Assembly (NCBI GenBank): GCA_030653935.1
Contig: JAURYL010000096.1
Coordinates: 1 to 32,105, forward strand
Reading direction: 5' to 3'
DNA length: 32,105 nt
Origin: Pseudomonadota bacterium
Lineage (GTDB): Bacteria > Pseudomonadota > Gammaproteobacteria > Burkholderiales > Thiobacillaceae
This document shows positions 3,302-23,884 of this stretch, piece after piece. The position numbers and the translations under genes are program-made. Numbering within the stretch: position 1 is the stretch's first letter; each line of letters starts with the position of its first letter. Under the pieces are notes generated by a model that saw only the letters and a list, made by a program, of their open reading frames with translations, made no database searches and was not told where the DNA came from.

Positions 3302-5197
3302 ATGCCTGTGATTCGTCTTCCCGATGGTTCCGAACGCGTATTCGATGCGCCAGTGACGGTGGCCGAGGTGGCCGCCAGTATCGGCGCCGGCCTGGCTCGC
3401 GCGGCGCTGGCCGGCAAGGTGGATGGCCAGATGGTCGATACCTCGTACCGTATCGACCGTGACGTCCGGCTCGCCATCGTCACCGACAAGGACGCCGATG
3501 GCGTCGACCTGATCCGCCATTCCACCGCGCACCTGCTGGCGTTCGCGGTGAAGCAACTGTTCCCGGACGCCCAGGTGACCATCGGCCCGGTGATCGAGGA
3601 CGGCTTCTATTACGACTTCTCCTATAAGCGCCCCTTCACCCTGGAAGATCTGGCGGCGATCGAGAAGCGCATGGGCGAGATCGCGAAGAAGGACATTCCG
3701 GTCTCCCGCGAGGAGTGGGATCGAGATCAGGCGGTGGCCTATTTCGAGTCCATCGGCGAGCACTACAAGGCCGAACTGATTGCCGCGATTCCGCAAGGCC
3801 AGACCATTTCCCTGTATCGCGAGGGCGATTTCGTCGACCTCTGCCGAGGCCCGCACGTGCCGTCCACCGGCAAGCTCAAGGTGTTCAAGCTGATGAAGCT
3901 GGCCGGCGCCTACTGGCGCGGCGACTCGAAGAACGAGATGTTGCAGCGCGTCTACGGCACCGCCTGGGGCCACAAGGACGATCTGGCCGCCTACCTGCAC
4001 CGCCTGGAAGAGGCGGAGAAACGCGACCATCGCCGCCTCGGCAAGCAGCTCAACCTGTTCCATCTCCAGGAAGAGTCGCCGGGCATGGTGTTCTGGCATC
4101 CGCATGGCTGGGTGCTGTGGCAGGAAATCGAGCAGTACATGCGCCGCAAGTTCATCGAGTGCGGCTACCAGGAAGTGAAGACCCCGACGATCATGGATAA
4201 GTCGCTGTGGGAGAAATCCGGCCACTGGGAAAACTACCGCGAACAGATGTTCACCACCGCCTCGGAAAACCGCGATTACGCGGTGAAGCCGATGAACTGT
4301 CCCGGTCACGTGCAGATTTTCAATCACGGTCTGCATTCCTACCGTGACCTGCCCATGCGCCTGGCCGAGTTCGGCTCCTGCCACCGCAACGAGCCTTCCG
4401 GGGCTTTGCATGGTCTGATGCGGGTGCGCGCCTTCACTCAGGACGATGCTCACATCTTCTGTACGGAAGGCCAGATCCAGCCCGAGGTGTCCGACTTCAT
4501 CAAGATGCTGCAAGCGGTGTATGCCGATTTTGGCTTCAGCGATGTGCTGGTGAAACTCTCCACCCGCCCGGACAAGCGGGTCGGTTCGGATGAGTCCTGG
4601 GACAAGGCGGAGGCCGGTCTCGCCGCCGCCCTGGAGCAAAATAATCTGGCGTTTGACCTGCAACCGGGCGAGGGCGCGTTCTACGGCCCCAAGATCGAAT
4701 TCACGTTGAAGGATTCGCTCGGCCGCCTCTGGCAGGTCGGCACCATCCAGCTCGACTTCAACCTGCCGGTACGTCTGGGCGCCGAGTTCGTCGACGAGGA
4801 CAACACCCGCAAGCCACCGGTGATGCTGCACCGCGCGATTCTCGGTTCGATGGAGCGTTTCATCGGCATCCTGATCGAGCATTACGCCGGCAATTTCCCG
4901 GTCTGGCTCGCCCCGGTGCAGGTGGTGGTCATGAATATCACCGACAATCAGGCGGAATATGCCGCTGAAATCGTGCAAAACCTTAAAAAACAAGGTGTCC
5001 GCGTGGTTTCAGACTTGAGGAACGAGAAGATCACCTATAAAATCCGCGAGCACTCCATGCAGCGCATCCCCTACCTGATCATCGTTGGCGATAAAGAACG
5101 CCAGGAAGCCAAGGTGGCGGTACGCAAGCGCGGCGGCGAGGATCTCGGTCAGATGGACCTGGATGCTTTCCTCGGCAAATTGCGTGGAAGTGAGTGA
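3302..5197 (+). CDS. thrS: Threonyl-tRNA synthetase
   Basis: 631-residue class II synthetase that activates threonine, charges tRNA-Thr in the cytosol, and edits mischarged serine. Domains in order are an N-terminal TGS domain (about 1-60), the editing domain with HSTAHLLAF and the CRGPHVP segment, the catalytic core (motif 1 near NYREQMF, motif 2 [16 protein letters not shown], motif 3 [12 protein letters not shown]) and the anticodon-binding domain from about APVQVVVMN. The zinc ligands correspond to C333 (NCPGH), H384 (DDAHIFC) and H510. A GTG at 3293 would add three residues. The ATG at 3302 is preferred because GAAGG lies 8 bases upstream and MPVIRLPDG aligns with the usual N-terminus. 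It heads the translation gene cluster. Confidence 0.98.
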
Positions 5198-5204
5198 ACA
5201 ACCT

Positions 5205-5240
5205 GAGGGGCCGATGCAATTGATCGGCTCCTCGTTTTTT
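5205..5240 (+). terminator. Intrinsic terminator/attenuator between thrS and infC
   Basis: GAGGGGCCGAT (5205-5215) pairs with ATCGGCTCCTC (5223-5233) with one G-U pair, loop GCAATTG, then GTTTTTTT. It begins 7 bases after the thrS stop and ends just before the infC ribosome site, so it sets how much infC message comes from thrS transcription. Confidence 0.8.
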
Positions 5241-5254
5241 TCAAGGGGCTTGAA

Positions 5255-5773
5255 ATAGCACAGGACAAAGAACCCCGGATCAATGGCGAGATTGACGTCT
5301 CCCCGGTCCGATTGGTGGGTGTGGAAAGCGAGCAGCTGGGTATTGTCAGTCTGCGTGAAGCGTTGGCAATGGCCGAAACGGCCGAGCTGGATCTGGTGGA
5401 GATTGCGCCGCAAGCGCAGCCTCCGGTTTGCCGAATCATGGATTACGGCAAATTCAAGTATCAGGAAAGCAAGAAGCAGCACGAGGCCAAGCTCAAGCAG
5501 AAGCAGATCCAGATCAAGGAAGTGAAGTTTCGTCCGGCGACGGACGACAACGACTATCAGGTCAAGCTGCGCAACCTGATCCGCTTTCTCGGCGAAGGCG
5601 ACAAGGCCAAGGTCACGTTGCGTTTCCGTGGTCGTGAAATGGCCCACCAGGAGTTCGGTCTTGATTTGCTCAAGCGGGTGGAAGCCGATCTGGCGGAGCA
5701 TGCCGTGGTCGAGCAGTTTCCCAAGATGGAAGGGCGCCAGATGATCATGGTGCTCTCACCCAAGAAGAAGTAA
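5255..5773 (+). CDS. infC: Translation initiation factor IF-3 (ATA start)
   Basis: 172 residues. IF-3 binds the 30S subunit, keeps it apart from 50S and rejects wrong start codons. The N-domain carries RINGEI and [12 protein letters not shown], then [10 protein letters not shown], a Lys/Gln-rich linker, and the C-domain ending [13 protein letters not shown]. No ATG, GTG or TTG gives a full N-terminus: the first, TTG at 5312, would delete the conserved RINGEI. Reading upstream in frame gives ATA GCA CAG GAC AAA GAA CCC CGG ATC AAT, with AAGGGG (5243-5248) six bases before the ATA. IF-3 genes commonly use AUU, AUA or AUC starts, which the factor itself discriminates against, giving autoregulation. 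An ATT at 5219 lies inside the terminator loop and is rejected. Confidence 0.95.
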
Positions 5774-5893
5774 TCCGGATTTACCCCGAGGCGGGCACGG
5801 GCCTCGTGAATCAACCGTGCCGACAAGTGCTGTCAGGCTGTTCAAGCGCTCTCGAGGAGGGCCGCCCGATGGCATCGAAGAAATGGAGCAATC
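5774..5893 (+). promoter_or_regulatory. Untranslated infC-rpmI spacer with small hairpin; possible L20 control site
   Basis: A 120-base spacer contains CGAGGC (5787-5792) pairing with GCCTCG (5801-5806). In other Gammaproteobacteria ribosomal protein L20 represses rpmI-rplT by binding structured RNA upstream of rpmI. The position fits, but I cannot show the pseudoknot or the L20 site by eye. Confidence 0.3.
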
Positions 5894-6091
5894 ATGCCCA
5901 AAATGAAGTCCAAGAGCGGGGCCGCCAAGCGTTTCCGCGTGCGGGGCAACGGCACTCTCAAGCGCTCGTCTGCTTATATGCGTCACATCCTGACCAAAAA
6001 AACCACCAAGCGTAAGCGTCAGTTGCGTGGGATGTCCGATGTCCACGCTGCGGATGTCGGTCACGTTCGCGCCATGTTGCCCTACGCATAA
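5894..6091 (+). CDS. rpmI: 50S ribosomal protein L35
   Basis: 65-residue basic ribosomal protein of standard length. It starts [14 protein letters not shown] and contains the family signature through [17 protein letters not shown], ending in MLPYA. GGAG at 5885-5888 precedes the ATG by 5 bases. It is part of the large subunit. The rplT gene follows after 11 bases with its AAGGAG overlapping the rpmI stop codon, so the pair is made together. The gene pair is classically repressed by L20. Confidence 0.97.
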
Positions 6092-6102
6092 GGAGATAGA
6101 GC

Positions 6103-6468
6103 ATGCCAAGAGTTAAACGTGGTGTAACCGCACACGCCAACCACAAGAAGGTTATCGACGCAGCCAAGGGTTATCGCGGCCGTCGCAAGAACGTATTCCG
6201 CGTCGCCAACGAAGCGGTGATGAAGGCCGGTCAGTATGCCTACCGCGACCGTCGCCAGAAAAAACGTCAGTTCCGCGCCCTCTGGGTTGCCCGGATCAAC
6301 GCCGCCGTGCGGAGTCTCGGAATGGACATGAATTACAGCGTGTTCATGCACGGTCTGAAGAAAGCCGGCATCGAGATCGACCGCAAGGTTCTCTCCGATA
6401 TGGCTATCGTCGACCAGCCCGCGTTCGCCAAGATCGCCGAGCAGGCCAAGGCCAGCCTGGGGGCGTAA
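6103..6468 (+). CDS. rplT: 50S ribosomal protein L20
   Basis: 121 residues (family about 118). L20 binds 23S rRNA early in 50S assembly and is the autogenous translational repressor of rpmI-rplT in enteric bacteria. The N-terminus [16 protein letters not shown] and the segments [14 protein letters not shown] and [19 protein letters not shown] are diagnostic. An AAGGAG site lies 7 bases before the ATG. An intrinsic terminator follows. Confidence 0.98.
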
Positions 6469-6489
6469 GCTTTTTGCCCCCAGCATGAG

Positions 6490-7556
<1,067 letters not shown>

Positions 7557-7565
7557 TTCCCCGCC

Positions 7566-9935
7566 ATGCAATTCTCCGAAGCCTGGCTGCGTAGCCTCGT
7601 CAATCCCGCCCTGAACACCCAGGAACTCGGCCATCTGTTGACCATGGCCGGTCTGGAAGTGGAGGCCATCGAATCCGTCGCGCCCGCGTTCAATCAGGTC
7701 GTGGTCGCGGAAATCCTCAGCGCCGAAAAACATCCCAACGCCGACCGCCTTCAGGTCTGCCAGGTGGCTGTCGGCGGCGCGGAGCCGCTGACCATCGTTT
7801 GCGGCGCCCCCAATGCCCGCGCCGGGTTGAAGACCGCCTGTGCCCTGGTCGGCGCGGTGCTGCCTGGAGCTCAGTTGCAACCACTCCAGATCAAGCAGGC
7901 CAAGGTCCGCGATGTGGCCTCGTTCGGCATGCTCTGTTCCAGCAAGGAACTGGGCATTCCCGGCGATGCCGCCGGCATCATGGAACTGGCCGCCGAGGCG
8001 CCGGTCGGCCAGTCACTGCGGCAGTGGCTGAACCTCGACGACAGCCTGATCACCCTCAAGCTCACACCCAACCGGGGCGATTGCCTGTCGCTCGCCGGTA
8101 TTGCCCGCGAAGTCGCGGCGCTGACCGCGACGCCACTGGCGCCGGTCGATTGCGCGCCGGTTAGCGCCGGCGGCGACGCCACCCACGCCATCGGCATCAC
8201 CGCCGAGGCTGCTTGCCCGCGTTACTGCGGCCGGGTGATACGCGGCATCGATGCCGCCGCCAGCAGCCCCGCCTGGATGGTCGAGCGCCTGGAGCGTTCC
8301 GGGCTGCGCCCCATTCATCCGGTGGTGGACGTGACCAATTATGTCCTGCTGGAACTGGGCCAACCCATGCACGCCTTTGATCTCGCCAAACTACAAGGCG
8401 GCATCCAGGTACGCATGGGCCGGGCGGGGGAGCAACTTGCCCTGCTCAACGAGCAAAGCATCACGCTGACGGAAGACGCCCTGGTCATCGCCGACGACTC
8501 CGGCGCCCTGGCCCTGGCCGGCATCATGGGCGGCGCCGGCAGCGCGGTATCCGAGGCCAGTGTCGACATCTTCCTGGAAGCCGCGCATTTCGACCCCGAC
8601 GCCATCGCCGGTCGCGCCCGTTGTTATGGTCTTTCCACCGATTCCTCGCACCGCTTCGAACGCGGCGTCGACCCGCAACTGCCGCGCCGCGCGATGGAAC
8701 GCGCCACGCGCCTGATCCTGGATATCTGCGGCGGCGAATGCGGCCCGATCAGCGAGGCCGGCTCTGGCGTCGCGGCGCCCGCCGCCATCGATTTCCGTCC
8801 GGCGCGGGTGCGCCGCCTGCTCGGTTTCGACCTCGCCGATGCCACCATGCGCGGCATCCTGCAAGGCCTGGATCTGGGCGTCGCAGGCGAGGGCGAGACC
8901 TGGGCCGTTAGCGCGCCCAGCCACCGCTTCGACATCAAGGGCGAGGTCGACCTGATCGAGGAGATCGCTCGCGTCCACGGTTACGACGCGATTCCCGTGG
9001 CGGCGCCGCGCGGCCAGGCCAGCCTGTTGCCGGTGGAGGAGGGCAAGCGCGCGCAGCATGACCTGAAAAAGCTCATGGTGGCGCGGGGTTACCAGGAAAT
9101 CATCACTTACAGCTTCATTTCGGAAGATCTGGACAAGGATTTCCGCGCCACGGGTGAGGCGCTGCCGCTGCTCAACCCCATCGCCAGCCAGATGGGTGTG
9201 ATGCGCGGCAGTCTCATGGGTGGCCTGGTCCAGACGCTCAAGCACAACCTCAACCACGGCCAGGAGCGCCTGCGCCTGTTCGAGATCGGCCGCGCCTTCC
9301 ATAGCGCCGAGGCGGACGCCCAGCCACGCCTTGCCGCCGGTCTCGCCTATGGCGCCGCCCACGCCGAGCAATGGGGCGAGCCGACCCGCGGGGTTGATTT
9401 CTTCGACATCAAGGCCGATGTCGAAGCGCTGTTGCATCCACTGCCGGCGCAATTCGAGCCCGCCGCGCATCCCGCCCTGCACCCCGGTCAGTGCGCGCGC
9501 GTCAGTATCGCGGGGCAGGCGGCCGGCTGGATTGGCGCCCTGCATCCGCGTCTGACCCAGCGCCACGCGCTGGCCAAGGTGCCGATCCTGTTCGAAATCG
9601 ACCTCGCCCTCCTGCTCAGCGGGCAGGCGCCGAGCTATCGCGGCGTGCCCCGGCTGCCCGCCGTACGTCGCGACATCGCCGTGGTGGTCGACGAGAAGCA
9701 GCCGCTTGCCGCCATGCTGGCGGCCGTGCGCGCCGCCATGCCTCCCCTCGTTTCAGATTTTTCCTTGTTCGATGTGTACCAGGGACAGGGGGTTGAGTCT
9801 GGCAAAAAGAGCCTTGCATTCAAGATGTTGTTACAACATACTGAGAAAACGCTTACAGAATCCGAGATCGACTCGGCCGTACAGGAAATCATCGGCATAT
9901 TGGGTAACCAGTTCGATGCCAGCCTGCGACGGTGA
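7566..9935 (+). CDS. pheT: Phenylalanyl-tRNA synthetase beta subunit
   Basis: 789 residues, normal for bacterial PheT. It gives the B1-B8 domain series: an N-terminal tRNA-binding EMAP/OB domain with VVVAEILSAEKHPNADRLQV near 45, the B3/B4 editing domain (NRGDCLSLAGIAREVA, DVTNYVLLELGQPMHAFD), the B5 domain with IEEIARVHGYD near its end, the inactive class II-like core (MRGSLMGGLVQTLKHN, LFEIGRAF), and a C-terminal ferredoxin-like anticodon-binding domain from YRGVPRLPAVRRDIAVVVD. It hydrolyses Tyr-tRNA-Phe and completes the synthetase. ihfA follows after 15 bases, the classic pheST-ihfA operon. Confidence 0.98.
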   Translation: MQFSEAWLRSLVNPALNTQELGHLLTMAGLEVEAIESVAPAFNQVVVAEILSAEKHPNADRLQVCQVAVGGAEPLTIVCGAPNARAGLKTACALVGAVLPGAQLQPLQIKQAKVRDVASFGMLCSSKELGIPGDAAGIMELAAEAPVGQSLRQWLNLDDSLITLKLTPNRGDCLSLAGIAREVAALTATPLAPVDCAPVSAGGDATHAIGITAEAACPRYCGRVIRGIDAAASSPAWMVERLERSGLRPIHPVVDVTNYVLLELGQPMHAFDLAKLQGGIQVRMGRAGEQLALLNEQSITLTEDALVIADDSGALALAGIMGGAGSAVSEASVDIFLEAAHFDPDAIAGRARCYGLSTDSSHRFERGVDPQLPRRAMERATRLILDICGGECGPISEAGSGVAAPAAIDFRPARVRRLLGFDLADATMRGILQGLDLGVAGEGETWAVSAPSHRFDIKGEVDLIEEIARVHGYDAIPVAAPRGQASLLPVEEGKRAQHDLKKLMVARGYQEIITYSFISEDLDKDFRATGEALPLLNPIASQMGVMRGSLMGGLVQTLKHNLNHGQERLRLFEIGRAFHSAEADAQPRLAAGLAYGAAHAEQWGEPTRGVDFFDIKADVEALLHPLPAQFEPAAHPALHPGQCARVSIAGQAAGWIGALHPRLTQRHALAKVPILFEIDLALLLSGQAPSYRGVPRLPAVRRDIAVVVDEKQPLAAMLAAVRAAMPPLVSDFSLFDVYQGQGVESGKKSLAFKMLLQHTEKTLTESEIDSAVQEIIGILGNQFDASLRR

Positions 9936-13179: not shown

Positions 13180-13256
13180 CGGGGCGTAGCGCAGCCTGGT
13201 AGCGCACCTGCATGGGGTGCAGGGGGTCGGAAGTTCGAGTCTTCTCGCCCCGACCA
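13180..13256 (+). tRNA. tRNA-Pro (anticodon GGG); probable prophage attachment site
   Basis: 77-base cloverleaf with acceptor stem CGGGGCG/CGCCCCG, anticodon loop ATGGGGT with GGG at 13214-13216, T-loop GTTCGAGTC and encoded CCA (13254-13256). The integrase gene begins 82 bases past its 3' end in convergent orientation, the usual layout when a phage uses a tRNA 3' end as attB. The duplicated att copy would be at the far prophage end, outside the window. Confidence 0.97.
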
Positions 13257-13338: not shown

Positions 13339-14412
13339 TTATTTCTGCCCCGGAATCGATAGGGCGACTCTGCTCAGTTTTGCCATCCGCTGCTTGAGAT
13401 AGATCCGGGTCGTGCCTGTGTCTTCGTGCGCCAGCGAGTCCTGGATGTCCTCGTCGCTGTAGCCTGCGCGTTTGGCGTCGGTGGCGTGTTTCGCGCGTAA
13501 ATCCTTCAGGGTTGCATCCTCGATACCGGCGCGCTTCCTGGCGCGTTCCCATGCCGTGCCGACGCCGTGGGCACTGTAGGCGTCGCCGGTCAGATTGTGG
13601 ATTATGTAGGGGCTGATCCTGGTCTTGCTGCGGCTCACGGCGCGCGCTCGGGCGAGCACGTCGGCGATGGCGGCGGTGATCGGCACATCCACCTTGGCGC
13701 CTGAGCTGGTGGCGGTCTTGCTGGGCTTGAAGCGGATCACACCGGCGTCCTCGTCGACCTGTGTCCAGCGCAGCAGGCGGATGTCCTGGCCACGCTGTCC
13801 GGTGAGGTAGAGTAGATCCACGAACACCTGCATCATGGGGCCGCTGGCGGCGGCGTGCTCGTCATTGCCGAGCAACTTGTCGCGGATGGCCAAGTACTCC
13901 ACATCAGTGATGTAGCGGTCATGCTTGGCGGGCGCCTTGAGGCGGATCGCGTCGACTGGGCTGTCGGCGCGATCGCCCTGGACGATGCACCAGCGGAAGA
14001 ACTTGGCCAGCTGGGCGCGGTACCGCTGGGCGGTGCGCAGCTTGCCGTCCAGTGTCCACTGGTTGAGGAACAGCAAGACGTGTTTTGCCTGGATCTGCTC
14101 GACGCGGAATTCGGAGAAGGCTTCGGCGATCGCGGCCGCCATGCGGGCGACTTCCTTTTGTTCCGCTGCCGATAGGCCGGGCAGGGTCTGCTGTAGCCAG
14201 GTGGTGACGCGTTTTGGCATATGGCTGTCGGTGGCCGCCGGCTGCGATTCCAGCTCGGCCAGGGCGCGATACAGGGCGGCGAGACCTTCGATCGCACGGG
14301 TGAGCGCGTGCCATTTCTTCTTGCGCTTGCCCTCCACCATGCCGATGTACTGGACGCGGTAGTAGCGCCCATCCTTGAGGTGTACGCCGGGCGGGAGATT
14401 GGCTTTTGGCAT
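13339..14412 (-). CDS. int: Phage tyrosine integrase
   Basis: 357-residue site-specific recombinase catalysing integration and, with a directionality factor, excision. An N-terminal arm-binding region (about 1-50) and core-binding SAM-like domain (about 70-170) precede the catalytic domain. Active-site residues are R207 (TGQRGQD), K232, R306 and H309 (LKDLRAKHATD, where the usual first His is Lys303), H329 (SLAHEDT) and the nucleophile Y338 (TRIYLK). An upstream extension of the frame overlaps the DUF4224 gene and is ignored; the ATG at 14412 starts 2 bases after that gene's stop. It is the last gene of the leftward operon and lies beside tRNA-Pro. Confidence 0.95.
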   Translation of the reverse strand: MPKANLPPGVHLKDGRYYRVQYIGMVEGKRKKKWHALTRAIEGLAALYRALAELESQPAATDSHMPKRVTTWLQQTLPGLSAAEQKEVARMAAAIAEAFSEFRVEQIQAKHVLLFLNQWTLDGKLRTAQRYRAQLAKFFRWCIVQGDRADSPVDAIRLKAPAKHDRYITDVEYLAIRDKLLGNDEHAAASGPMMQVFVDLLYLTGQRGQDIRLLRWTQVDEDAGVIRFKPSKTATSSGAKVDVPITAAIADVLARARAVSRSKTRISPYIIHNLTGDAYSAHGVGTAWERARKRAGIEDATLKDLRAKHATDAKRAGYSDEDIQDSLAHEDTGTTRIYLKQRMAKLSRVALSIPGQK

Positions 14413-14414
14413 GG

Positions 14415-14624
14415 TCAGGCGGCCTTGCGCAGCCGCACCTTGGGTTCCTTGTCCTGCTGCATCCTCACCCCGAGCTGCCATCGCGTCAACGCCTCGCGGT
14501 CGAGCATGACGCGATTGGCGCGGTTGCGGAACACGGTCAGCCCCCATTCGCGCAGCAGGCGCTCTTGGGCGGCGGGCTGGTCGAGACCGGTAAGACTGGA
14601 GAGCTCTTCAGGGGTAAGGAACAT
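14415..14624 (-). CDS. DUF4224 protein, excisionase-like
   Basis: 69 residues, starting MFLTPEELSSLTGLDQPAAQ and ending in a basic tail. It resembles the DUF4224 family of small phage proteins that sit immediately upstream of tyrosine integrases. The pattern (EELSSLTG, then RLLREWGLTVFRNRANRVML) fits a small winged-helix fold like excisionases. By position it may be the recombination directionality factor, which is inference. It is spaced by 2 bases from both neighbours. Confidence 0.8.
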   Translation of the reverse strand: MFLTPEELSSLTGLDQPAAQERLLREWGLTVFRNRANRVMLDREALTRWQLGVRMQQDKEPKVRLRKAA

Positions 14625-20789: not shown

Positions 20790-20889
20790 CCGGTTGCCTG
20801 CTCCTGCTGTCCCTGTAGGCCTGTCACCGGGGTCCTATGCCGTGAGGCTGCCGGGTGAGGGTGTCCGCTGGGTGGCGGGGAGTGATGCA

Positions 20890-20929
20890 AGTAAAGCAGC
20901 CTTTACCGTTAAAGTCAACGCCCCTTTAC
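20890..20929 (-). promoter_or_regulatory. Leftward promoter PL with operators OL1 and OL2
   Basis: On the minus strand TTGACT (20918-20913), 17 bases, TTTACT (20895-20890). OL1 is GTAAAGCAGCCTTTAC at 20891-20906, covering the -10 region and part of the spacer. OL2 is GTCAACGCCCCTTTAC at 20914-20929, covering the -35. OL1 is the exact reverse complement of OR1, and the OL1-OL2 offset is 23 bases, the same as at OR. Confidence 0.85.
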
Positions 20930-20939
20930 CTTGCCCGCA

Positions 20940-20967
20940 ACAAAAAACCCGCCGGCGCGGGCGGGTT
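20940..20967 (-). terminator. Minus-strand terminator upstream of PL (t-imm-like)
   Basis: Read on the minus strand: AACCCGCC, loop CGCGCC, GGCGGGTT, then TTTTG. It lies between the immunity region and PL, so it would stop the repressor-lipoprotein transcript before it reaches the leftward lytic operon, as lambda t-imm does. Confidence 0.7.
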
Positions 20968-21025: not shown

Positions 21026-21301
21026 ATGATCCTGAGCTACCGACACAAAGGCTTGGCCGAGTTGGCCGAAACCGGCAAGTCCGCCAAGGTGCGGCCCGAC
21101 CTGTGGGCGCGGGCGCTGCGGCGGCTGGATGCGATGGCGGCGGCGAAGACGCCGGAGGCGTTACGGGTGCCGGGGTTCGATTTCCATCCGCTGCACGGGG
21201 TGCCGCCACGCTACAGCGTGCACATCAACGGGCCGTGGTGCATCACGTTCGGCTGGGAAGGTGAAAACGCGGTGGATGTCGATCTGGAAAACTATCACTA
21301 G
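21026..21301 (+). CDS. higB: HigB-type toxin (RelE superfamily mRNA interferase)
   Basis: 91 residues. It opens MILSYRHKGLAELAETGKSA and has GFDFHPLHG, RYSVHINGPWCITFGW and VDLENYH, the standard HigB pattern (RHKGL, then LHPLKG, then W-ITF, then DYH). HigB toxins cleave mRNA on the ribosome and are inhibited by the downstream antitoxin. No ribosome site precedes the ATG, and the best promoter starts transcription almost at the ATG, so the message may be leaderless. higA follows after 10 bases. It lies inside the prophage immunity region, suggesting addiction or exclusion. Confidence 0.93.
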   Translation: MILSYRHKGLAELAETGKSAKVRPDLWARALRRLDAMAAAKTPEALRVPGFDFHPLHGVPPRYSVHINGPWCITFGWEGENAVDVDLENYH

Positions 21302-21311
21302 GAGTATTGCG

Positions 21312-21614
21312 ATGATGAATATGGCGCGCTGCCCGACGCATCCGGGTGAGATTCTGCGGGAGGATTCCCTTCCTGCCATCGGCTTGTCGGTCGCCGCGTT
21401 CGCGCGTGCCCTGGGGGTCTCCCGGCAGATGGTGCATGGCATTCTGGCGGAGCGGTCGGCGGTGTCGCCGGAGATGGCGGTGCGCCTGGGGGCGTTCTTC
21501 GGCAATGGCCCGCAACTGTGGATTGACATGCAGACGCGGCGCGATTTGTGGTTGGCGGAAAAGCGCATGGATGGGCACTTGCCGACGACTTACACGGTGT
21601 TGTCGGTGCAATGA
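21312..21614 (+). CDS. higA: HigA-type antitoxin
   Basis: 100 residues. It is a helix-turn-helix antitoxin that binds HigB and represses its own promoter. HPGEILREDSLPAIGLSVAA, ALGVSRQMVHGILAERSAVS, RLGAFFGNGPQLWIDMQ and DLWLAEKRM are the family pattern. GGAG (21301-21304), overlapping the HigB stop, precedes the ATG at 21312; an adjacent ATG at 21315 is also possible. Toxin-first order is typical of hig loci. Its stop overlaps the start of a third small gene. Confidence 0.95.
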   Translation: MMNMARCPTHPGEILREDSLPAIGLSVAAFARALGVSRQMVHGILAERSAVSPEMAVRLGAFFGNGPQLWIDMQTRRDLWLAEKRMDGHLPTTYTVLSVQ

Positions 21615-21748
21615 TGCGAAGGGAGACTGATTGGGAACGGGTGAGGCGCGAGGCGGCGGCGGATGCGCCGATTGCGCGGGATGCCGAGGCCGAGCTTTAC
21701 GACCCCAGCCAGTTGCTGCGCGATGCTGTGTGGCAGGGGAGGCTGTGA
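21611..21748 (+). CDS. Small third gene of the higBA operon
   Basis: 45 residues, opening MMRRETDWERVRREAAADAP and ending LLRDAVWQGRL, highly charged and helical. Its ATG overlaps the higA stop (ATGA), and it ends 5 bases before the convergent lipoprotein gene. No family recognised. Its length and charge could suit a chaperone-like or regulatory accessory, which is inference; it might be an unselected frame. Confidence 0.5.
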   Translation: MMRRETDWERVRREAAADAPIARDAEAELYDPSQLLRDAVWQGRL

Positions 21749-21753
21749 TCCTG

Positions 21754-22125
21754 CTAAGGCATGGCTTCCAGCTCGGCGTAGAGCAGATTGGTCAGCGGCG
21801 CCGGGTCAGTGACGCAGCCATAAAGGGTCGGGTGGCAACCGCCCTGAATCGAGATCAGCACTTTGCCGTTCGGCTGCTGGTGTTTAGTCAGGGTGTAAGC
21901 CACGGCGTCATAGACACCTTCATGCGGCCCATAGGTCTGGATCACGGCATCGTTGATGATCTGAATACGGTAGCGGCCGTTGACAGCCAGCCAGGTCTGC
22001 GCGCGCTGCCAGAGCCGCTCGCAGCGTGCTCCATCGCACTGGACGCCAGCCGTGGCGGTAGGACGGTAGAACGTTCCGCAACCGGCGAGCAGTAAAACGA
22101 TAAGAACGCCCCAGCGTTTTTTCAT
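21754..22125 (-). CDS. Prophage lipoprotein
   Basis: 123 residues with a lipoprotein signal: basic MKKRW, hydrophobic GVLIVLLL, lipobox L13-A-G-C16, so it is predicted to be lipid-anchored after cleavage before C16. The mature part has cysteine pairs (CDGARC, and GGCHPTLYGC), suggesting disulfides in the periplasm, and a stretch GVYDAVAYTLTKHQ. The start 22125 is chosen over 22137 because GGAG lies 6 bases upstream. It is transcribed with the repressor and the WYL-TerB gene, so it should be made in the lysogen. Small phage lipoproteins often block superinfecting phage; that role is inferred here. Confidence 0.75.
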   Translation of the reverse strand: MKKRWGVLIVLLLAGCGTFYRPTATAGVQCDGARCERLWQRAQTWLAVNGRYRIQIINDAVIQTYGPHEGVYDAVAYTLTKHQQPNGKVLISIQGGCHPTLYGCVTDPAPLTNLLYAELEAMP

Positions 22126-22164
22126 GAATGGCTCCATTTTTTCAATTTTTCGGCCATGGCGGTC

Positions 22165-23088
22165 CTAGGCTGGAACGATGGCTGTGATAAGCCGTTTATG
22201 CAAGTACTCAAGTGCCTCGGCCTCTTGTCCGGAAACGGTTTTTTCTGTGGCAACCATCGCCTCCGCCGCGTTCAACACCTGCAGCCGCGCGGCGTCTTCC
22301 AGCTTCCCGATTCTCCCGCAGATGAGCTTGAAGGCCTGTTGGGTTGGGATTTCCATCTGCGCGCAGAGTTGTTCGATCTGGTGCAGCGTAATACGCGCAT
22401 CGCCAGAAACGGTGTGGCAATAGCTCAGGAAAATTTTCTTTTCCTTGGCGGTAAAGCGACCATCGGCTTTGCCAATGTAAAACAACGCCCTGAGTGGGTC
22501 GGCGGCCGCGCCCAGCAACTTGTCGAGTGATGCAATGGGAGATTCTTCGTACTTCGCCGCTGCCCACGCGGTCAAGCTATTGATGATCTCGCCGGTCTCC
22601 AAGTCCACCGCGCGGTGGATGCGATCCAGCCGGAACGTGCGGATGGCGCCGCGCAGATGGCAATGACCAATCAAATACCCCGTCGGGTTGCTGGTGTCGC
22701 ACTCTTTCACGTCAACTTGCCGATCTGTCAATGCCCCGGCTGCGTCACGGTAGCTGAGCTTGAGCTGAGATTGTATGGGTCTGGGGTTGGAGGGGGTGAA
22801 ATCATCCTGGGCATCCCAATCGGGTGCATCCAGAGGCTCTTCAGTGGCTGCGACGTCCACCATCACGTTGATTCTTGATGGGGTGGGTGGCAATTGCGCG
22901 GCCGCTTTGATGCGTGCTTTTCCAGAGCCCGACCAGCGCCATAAACCATAGGCCATCAGCCCGGTCAGCATCGCCGGCGCCAGCAGGGTCTGATCGTGGC
23001 TCACTGCGACCATCACGACCTGGATCAGTGCGGAAATGGCACCCAGGACGACCAGGGTTTGCAATGCGGTTTTGAAAAACTCCTGCAT
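22165..23088 (-). CDS. Membrane-anchored WYL-TerB domain protein
   Basis: 307 residues. Two N-terminal membrane segments (about 5-25 and 36-52: TALQTLVVLGAISALIQVVM, and LLAPAMLTGLMAYGLWRW) are followed by a charged linker. A WYL-like domain comes next (about 105-175: LKLSYRDAAGALTDRQVDV, GYLIGHCHLRGAIRTFRLDR). The C-terminus is TerB-like (about 195-300: ALFYIGKADGRFTAKEKKIF, then the IEQLCAQMEIP repeat). WYL domains sense ligands, often nucleic acid or nucleotides, in phage defence regulators; TerB domains occur in stress and defence systems. The start 23088 has GGGAG just ahead. It lies between repressor and lipoprotein genes on the lysogenic transcript. Function unknown; exclusion or defence is a hypothesis. 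Confidence 0.75.
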   Translation of the reverse strand: MQEFFKTALQTLVVLGAISALIQVVMVAVSHDQTLLAPAMLTGLMAYGLWRWSGSGKARIKAAAQLPPTPSRINVMVDVAATEEPLDAPDWDAQDDFTPSNPRPIQSQLKLSYRDAAGALTDRQVDVKECDTSNPTGYLIGHCHLRGAIRTFRLDRIHRAVDLETGEIINSLTAWAAAKYEESPIASLDKLLGAAADPLRALFYIGKADGRFTAKEKKIFLSYCHTVSGDARITLHQIEQLCAQMEIPTQQAFKLICGRIGKLEDAARLQVLNAAEAMVATEKTVSGQEAEALEYLHKRLITAIVPA

Positions 23089-23175: not shown

Positions 23176-23577
23176 TTACCCGGATGACTGTTCCGGTTTG
23201 GCCTGGGCGGGATATTCGTTGGCGAGTTGGCGGGCCTGGTGGATCAGCACGTAGAGGCCGCGCTCACTCAACCCGCGCGCGGCCTCGACCAGCTCGCGCA
23301 GCAGCGGGGGCAGCGGCTCGGCGGCCAGGCGGGTGGCGTTGGCGGGGAGGGCGGAAACGCCAGGAAAGATCATTTCACCCGTACCAGACGACACCCAGTC
23401 AGGGTTTACGCGGTTCGATTTCTGCAATCTGGACAGGGCATCACGTTCAGGCGCCGTCAATCCGCGCTCCCACTGGCTCACCGCCTGCTTTGTCACCCCA
23501 GCGGCGGCCCCGAGGCCTTCTTGCGTCAGCCTCAGTTCCTTGCGGAGTTTTTTGATTCTGTCGGATAGGTCTTCCAT
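23176..23577 (-). CDS. CI-like phage repressor (short, no peptidase domain)
   Basis: 133 residues. The N-terminal XRE helix-turn-helix (about 3-65: LSDRIKKLRKELRLTQEGLG, AAGVTKQAVSQWERGLTAP) binds DNA. The remainder (SSGTGEMIFPG, then PPLLRELVEAARGLSERGLY) is a short helical dimerisation-type tail. No S24/LexA-type Ser-Lys autocleavage domain is present, so RecA-triggered self-cleavage is not expected. The upstream frame continues, but the ATG at 23577 falls just after operator OR3; the ATG at 23589 lies inside OR3. No ribosome site is visible for either, and the message may be leaderless. It is the first gene of the lysogenic transcript. Confidence 0.88.
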   Translation of the reverse strand: MEDLSDRIKKLRKELRLTQEGLGAAAGVTKQAVSQWERGLTAPERDALSRLQKSNRVNPDWVSSGTGEMIFPGVSALPANATRLAAEPLPPLLRELVEAARGLSERGLYVLIHQARQLANEYPAQAKPEQSSG

Positions 23578-23580
23578 AGG

Positions 23581-23641
23581 GTCAAGCATATTTGACCCAC
23601 CGGAAAGCCATGTTGACTTGATCAGTAAAGGCTGCTTTACT
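23581..23641. promoter_or_regulatory. OR operators OR3, OR2, OR1 with PR (+) and probable PRM (-)
   Basis: PR is TTGACT (23613-23618), 17 bases, TTTACT (23636-23641), identical hexamers to PL. OR1 is GTAAAGGCTGCTTTAC (23625-23640). OR2 is GGAAAGCCATGTTGAC (23602-23617), 23 bases away, covering the PR -35. OR3 is GTCAAGCATATTTGAC (23581-23596). A probable PRM -10 (minus TATGCT, 23591-23586) sits inside OR3 with a poor -35 overlapping OR2, as in lambda where repressor at OR2 activates PRM. Confidence 0.85.
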
Positions 23642-23647
23642 TTCGGC

Positions 23648-23884
23648 ATGGAAAACATAAGTGCCTCCACGATATTCAATAACCGGGCAGCGTTAGCTCG
23701 TATGGCAGGGGTGACGAAGCAGGCTGCCGGTAACTGGGACCGCATCCCTGCCGCCCGCGTCCTCTCCGTCTCCCGGGCCACCGGCTGGCAGGTGACGCCA
23801 CACGCCCTGCGCCCCGACATCTACCCCAACCCCACCGACGCCCTCCCGCCCGAGGTGGTCGCACAACAGCAGGAGATTGCATAA
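23648..23884 (+). CDS. cro: Cro/YdaS-like regulator
   Basis: 78 residues. It has a helix-turn-helix of the Cro/YdaS type (AALARMAGVTKQAAGNWDRI, PAARVLSVSRATGWQVTPHA) followed by LRPDIYPNPTDALPPEVV and a QQQ tail. It should bind OR/OL to turn off the repressor in lytic growth. The ATG at 23648 coincides with the expected transcription start of PR (-10 ends 23641) and no ribosome site fits, so the mRNA is probably leaderless. Its C-terminal tail is echoed in two later places. It heads the rightward early genes. Confidence 0.88.
   Translation: MENISASTIFNNRAALARMAGVTKQAAGNWDRIPAARVLSVSRATGWQVTPHALRPDIYPNPTDALPPEVVAQQQEIA

Follow-up and report, generated by a model that had tools for sequence, protein, structure and literature searches.

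The window, by which we mean the whole 32,105-nucleotide stretch of DNA analyzed here, contains part of a prophage. A tRNA-Pro gene (13180-13256) is adjoined by the integrase gene (13339-14547, minus strand; phrog_1), and further prophage genes encode a ParB-like protein, a CII-like activator, the terminase large subunit, and one protein similar to DNA polymerase/primase. The palindrome GTAAAGNNNNCTTTAC is present in two perfect copies, at 20891-20906 and 23625-23640, which are the only two in the window and both of which sit within a 31-nt inverted repeat; when up to three mismatches were allowed, nine matches were found against 2.43 expected. The first perfect copy, together with a degenerate one (20914-20929), makes up an OL-like operator region (20889-20929), and the second lies in an OR-like operator (23612-23642), the two palindromes being what would be expected of OL and OR. 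From the OL-like to the OR-like site, the interval holds higB, higA, and a 45-codon ORF on the plus strand and the genes for a lipoprotein, a WYL-TerB-like protein, and the repressor on the minus strand.

The XRE-type prophage repressor gene (23176-23589, minus strand) was recognized by Pfam HTH_3 (6.9e-12) and by phrog_4, transcriptional repressor (2.3e-16). A start at 23589 or 23577 is more likely than one at 23649, because the operator palindrome occupies 23625-23640. Divergent from the repressor is the gene for a Cro-like regulator (23648-23884, plus strand; phrog_35, 4e-16; Pfam YdaS, 3e-11). On the minus strand, 87 bp separate the repressor gene from the WYL-TerB-like gene and 39 bp separate the latter from the lipoprotein gene, and no terminator-like site was found in either gap; three weak terminator-like sites lie inside the repressor, WYL-TerB-like, and lipoprotein genes, in a region that holds six such sites against 3.2 expected. 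Coordinates and operator palindromes thus bear out the proposal of the sequence-only reading that OL and OR enclose these genes and that they follow the repressor. Between the OL-like operators and higB, a minus-strand hairpin with a T run (20946-20967) resembles a terminator, and leftward transcription through the repressor, WYL, and lipoprotein genes could pass antisense to higBA and end there.

The plus-strand neighbors include a HigBA toxin-antitoxin pair in which both components matched their models: HigB (21026-21301, plus strand; Pfam HigB-like_toxin, 4.2e-10; phrog_3066) and HigA (21312-21614, plus strand; NCBIfam antidote_HigA, 4.1e-29). The 45-codon ORF (21611-21748, plus strand) overlaps the higA stop and shares 82% DNA identity over 95 bases with contig C45 of the same genome, which encodes BrnA beside BrnT (Pfam BrnA, 1e-14; BrnT, 4e-16). 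In the alignment, the first 32 and last 13 residues of the 45-residue protein correspond to the two ends of the C45 BrnA, with the middle missing. We rejected this protein as a new partner of the minus-strand products and consider it an internally deleted BrnA antitoxin remnant. The complete BrnT-BrnA pair of the same genome (L002:1301-1892) is the relative of this remnant, and matches to the BrnA ends occurred in 3 of 149 genomes. The earlier suggestion that HigBA and the 45-residue protein form part of the unit found no support: HigBA and the BrnA remnant are convergent to the minus-strand genes and are probably outside the repressor-linked unit.

The WYL-TerB-like gene (22165-23088, minus strand) encodes a protein of 307 residues with predicted membrane helices at residues 2-29 and 33-64, a WYL barrel at about 102-162, and a TerB-like helical domain at 172-302, in an AlphaFold model with a pLDDT of 86.6. 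The two N-terminal helices agree with the two-span membrane protein proposed previously. The WYL assignment was likewise upheld, by Pfam (1.3e-9; 38.3 bits, above the cut-off of 21.8) and by fold matches of the barrel to CapW with ssDNA, BrxR, and PafBC. In an alignment of 20 sequences, Y113, R123, C143, R150, F152, R156, and G166 were invariant. The TerB part of the claim stands less firmly than the WYL part; the model contains a TerB-like helical domain with a fold match to 2ou3, while the Pfam TerB score (0.073; 13.8 bits) falls below the cut-off of 24.4, the best relative reaches 24.0 bits, and all seven members scanned were either below the cut-off or without a match. The N-terminal DNA-binding domain of WYL regulators was not recovered, in that no HTH family exceeded its Pfam cut-off and predicted membrane helices occupy its place; a lone weak winged-helix match (Lhr, E 0.13) covers residues 19-61. 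Run on the window's genes, PADLOC returned WYL-domain matches only, and the lipoprotein had no match.

The lipoprotein (21754-22125, minus strand; 123 residues) has a signal peptide and a lipobox, LLLAGC, that ends in the cysteine expected of a bacterial lipoprotein; it matches phrog_16082 (5e-15), is supported by its family alignment, and carries four further cysteines in its mature part. A glycine after the lipidated cysteine leads one to expect sorting to the outer membrane. The family comprises 57 loci, and in six of the eight inspected the gene lies ahead of a tail assembly gene in a lambda-like prophage; no WYL gene was noticed near the family members in tail modules among those eight. 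In E. coli phage vB_EcoM-606R7, a member lies between a 'host killer' gene and a YdfU-family gene. Two different lipoprotein genes were seen by eye in tandem before the tail assembly gene in five lambda-like prophages (L137, L143, L146, L148, and L149).

Among samples of 369 genomes of the class, 41 of relatives, and 398 of the phylum, matches spanning both domains were found beyond the window in the phylum sample only (G771, G450, G544, and G734), G771 being the same contig as Pseudomonas sp. ML96. Some match was present in 3 of the 41 relatives, none of which spanned both domains other than the window's own, and when 300 genomes of the order were searched with a profile, 18 gave matches, with only the window's own extending over the TerB part. 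Viral contigs provided the WYL-TerB-like relatives L065 (53% identity), L066, and L064, and GTDB genomes provided L067, from a Zoogloea oleivorans MAG, and a copy broken over two frames, L069. The larger class consists of proteins with membrane helices and a WYL domain without TerB; it was first met in Yersinia phage vB_YenM_201.16, where the gene lies between CI and the integrase, and it accounts for most of the at least 30 loci of one locus search. C-terminal additions among the membrane-anchored or TerB-fused WYL proteins vary (none, TerB-like, or BRCT-like). The membrane-anchored WYL proteins of L054-L057 end in a BRCT-like region and are encoded directly behind an S24-type repressor (recognized by Pfam in L054 and L057; the BRCT match of L054, at 0.0026, is below the cut-off). 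The Autographiviridae phage BUCT609 of Stenotrophomonas encodes a 69-residue protein with little besides a WYL domain (L006:2983-3192), directly before the DNA primase gene, and related Stenotrophomonas phages match as well.

The linkage to be checked in other prophages recurred as a place beside the repressor. We compared 34 loci whose WYL genes encode membrane-anchored or TerB-fused proteins (L004 and L035-L067, the window excluded), and in 32 the WYL gene is immediately preceded, on its own strand, by a repressor-type ORF that ends at most 290 bp away. The two exceptions are L058, which is cut by the contig end, and L065, where two genes separate the HTH gene from the WYL gene; there, a single-strand run (3764-5894) consists of an HTH gene, a HipA-like kinase gene (below the Pfam cut-off), an unnamed gene, and the TM-WYL-TerB gene. 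The repressor reference set came in part from these very loci, and 17 directly upstream proteins (from 16 of the 34 loci and L032) were therefore checked with Pfam; 15 reached the cut-off of HTH_3 or Phage_CI_repr, and those of L064 and L066 did not. In a rough control over 18 sources, in which gene calling missed the WYL genes of both L060 and L063 and the window's repressor was absent from the references, a repressor-type neighbor accompanied 12 of 14 flagged WYL genes and 4 of 171 other genes, two of the four (L053 and L066) being WYL genes that the flagging pattern had missed. The proteins form nine clusters at 50% identity, the window's included, and the upstream repressors are of differing types (P2-type CI, S24-type, and plain XRE). 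Many of the 34 loci are P2-like, and many are near-copies of P2-like prophages, so that the locus count overstates how independent the recurrence is; where a P2-like locus has an integrase, the WYL gene lies between it and CI. The link between repressor and WYL gene is strong.

The WYL-TerB-like loci number ten: the window, L029, L030, L031, L032, L064-L067, and L069. A repressor lies directly upstream in five (the window, L032, L064, L066, and L067), and the others comprise the HTH-led run of L065, a tail operon (L029), a position near an integrase (L031), a chromosomal-looking setting (L030), and the broken copy (L069), with the functions of these neighbors assigned mostly by eye. In L029 (Pseudomonas sp. 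ML96), the WYL-TerB-like gene (6305-6991) is oriented opposite to the tail operon in which it lies, next to a membrane protein gene (5874-6293) with, by eye, a zinc-ribbon-like cysteine pattern.

The window's own gene lies directly behind the prophage repressor on the same strand, as a repressor-linked exclusion module would. Two abortive systems, rexAB and bstA, occupy this slot, and BstA homologues are often found downstream of putative prophage repressors (PMC8585504). Elsewhere, WYL domains have been proposed to sense ligands in defence systems and have been listed in fusions with TerB and BRCT (PMC4012209), TerB may sense signals in the Ter system (PMC7824862), and the WYL domain of DriD binds ssDNA made by DNA damage (PMC12340889). 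Taking these together, we regard as the most likely role, though we put it forward tentatively and at a little short of even confidence, that of an exclusion or abortive module, expressed by the lysogen from the rexAB/bstA slot and built on a membrane-tethered nucleic-acid sensor. The promoter of the repressor would also express the WYL-TerB-like protein in the lysogen, and the N-terminal hairpin would anchor it in the inner membrane with both domains on the cytoplasmic side. The barrel would most likely bind a nucleic acid or nucleotide that signals a phage entering or replicating, ssDNA being the best guess by analogy with DriD and CapW; the membrane and the TerB-like domain would receive the signal, and infection would be stopped by a block of entry or an abortive response. 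The lipoprotein, probably in the outer membrane or periplasm, may be separate exclusion cargo or a partner on the envelope side. Gene order, the WYL domain, the predicted helices and fold, the operators, and the recurrence of the slot are the observations beneath this scheme; the settings of L030 and L029 are a counterpoint to exclusion, and a repressor-adjacent slot also suits lysogeny-tuning genes.

Whether the lipoprotein belongs to this mechanism was judged from its occurrence elsewhere. A strict lipobox ORF lies within 300 bp downstream in 3 of 10 WYL-TerB-like loci (the window, L067, and L069), compared with 2 of 222 control genes. The L069 case is doubtful, since the lipobox stretch and the TerB-like part of its broken WYL-TerB gene share one open frame, and the enrichment rests on this locus: without the window the comparison is 2 of 9 with 2 of 222 (p 0.008), and without both the window and L069 it is 1 of 8 (one-sided Fisher p 0.10). 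No strict lipobox ORF followed the TM-WYL genes without TerB in 22 loci, near-copies included. The order of repressor, WYL-TerB, and lipoprotein is shared by the window, L067, and the viral contig L064, in which a lipoprotein-like ORF 17 bp downstream has an imperfect lipobox that fails the strict rule. The L067 lipoprotein contains a BamE domain (1.8e-6), and profiles of the window's family align with the L064 and L067 proteins over little beyond the signal peptide. The DUF2511 protein encoded further downstream in L060 begins with a signal-like stretch, and an ORF resembling it is present in L062. L064 and L069 each encode, behind the lipoprotein-like ORF, a small protein (7128-7412 and 7725-8027, respectively) that has a cysteine cluster and a single hydrophobic segment and is a possible third member. 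With a lipobox ORF in few loci and no relation detected between the lipoproteins, the lipoprotein-WYL link is weak; of the proposed partnership, the recurrent order in L067 and L064 speaks for it, and most WYL loci lack a lipoprotein. We consider it slightly more likely than not that these are two independent cargo genes on one transcript, the WYL-TerB protein acting alone and the lipoprotein serving separately in exclusion or conversion. The family's presence in tail modules and in vB_EcoM-606R7 favors such independence, the commoner lipobox ORFs behind WYL-TerB-like genes argue against it, and it could hold whatever the role of the WYL-TerB protein.

The repressor, not the lipoprotein, is the most tightly linked gene, and the main rival to an exclusion role is therefore that the protein regulates lysogeny: a membrane-held WYL domain would sense products of DNA damage such as ssDNA, or the state of the cell, and adjust the repressor or induction, its partner being the repressor rather than a rival phage. 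The ssDNA binding of DriD and the CI-integrase placement in P2-like loci fit this proposal. The repressors, however, differ in type, which makes one mechanism acting on all of them less likely, there is no evident reason for a regulator to be membrane bound, and one WYL-TerB-like gene lies in a tail operon; we judge it rather unlikely. Distinctly less credible to us is a lysogenic conversion gene unrelated to phages that helps the host under envelope or metal stress. TerB does come from stress or tellurite systems, as the 2ou3 match recalls, and lipoproteins at this place include the BamE-domain protein, but the TM-WYL class mostly lacks TerB and yet keeps the slot, and the neighborhoods inspected by eye showed no further ter gene.

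Returning to the membrane-tethered sensor with an exclusion role, we can also frame it more broadly, with considerable reserve: a widespread prophage immunity class may exist, in several kinds of temperate phage, in which inner-membrane WYL sensors directly behind the repressor carry exchangeable C-terminal outputs, some TerB forms with a lipoprotein, and would exclude a rival by detecting its DNA at the membrane as it enters or begins to replicate. The position behind the repressor is one at which temperate phages carry exclusion genes for expression in the lysogen, and membrane helices joined to WYL at that position across nine clusters make a testable candidate for a new exclusion mechanism. 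Interest derives from this recurring class more than from the WYL-lipoprotein pair, and it raises the question of why a nucleic-acid-sensing regulator domain should be tied to the membrane behind a repressor.

Small lipoproteins made by prophages reportedly act in superinfection exclusion of the Ltp type (PMC3952083); the window's lipoprotein resembles these by description, and phrog_16082, which it matches, is without functional annotation. Glo of Vibrio phage K139, a secreted or periplasmic product, has been reported in exclusion (PMC4870250, PMC8537503); the likeness is that of an exported phage product, by description only, and the available portions of these sources mention no membrane WYL protein with Glo. 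BrxR, CapW, PafBC, and DriD possess a WYL barrel, with which the window protein shares a fold match and the conserved Arg/Phe motif; they are DNA-binding regulators in the accessible parts of their descriptions, whereas the window protein has membrane helices, a TerB-like domain, and no HTH above cut-off. The WYL-TerB domain pair itself is known from the fusions of Makarova et al. 2014, whose available text mentions neither membrane anchoring nor a place behind prophage repressors (PMC4012209). A literature search of titles and abstracts, with subscription papers largely outside it, found nothing on membrane-anchored WYL proteins behind prophage repressors, so that, as far as we have seen, the anchoring and the recurrent repressor-side place have not been described. 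No Rex- or BstA-named match was returned by Pfam, NCBIfam, PHROGs, or PADLOC. BstA and lambda RexAB are close in arrangement, with the same slot behind the repressor and expected expression in the lysogen (PMC8585504). The window differs from them in having a lipoprotein and a membrane hairpin that bears WYL and TerB-like domains, and the presence of membrane sensors in the same slot of other, partly very different prophages suggests, from their sequences, an undescribed guard against rival viruses.
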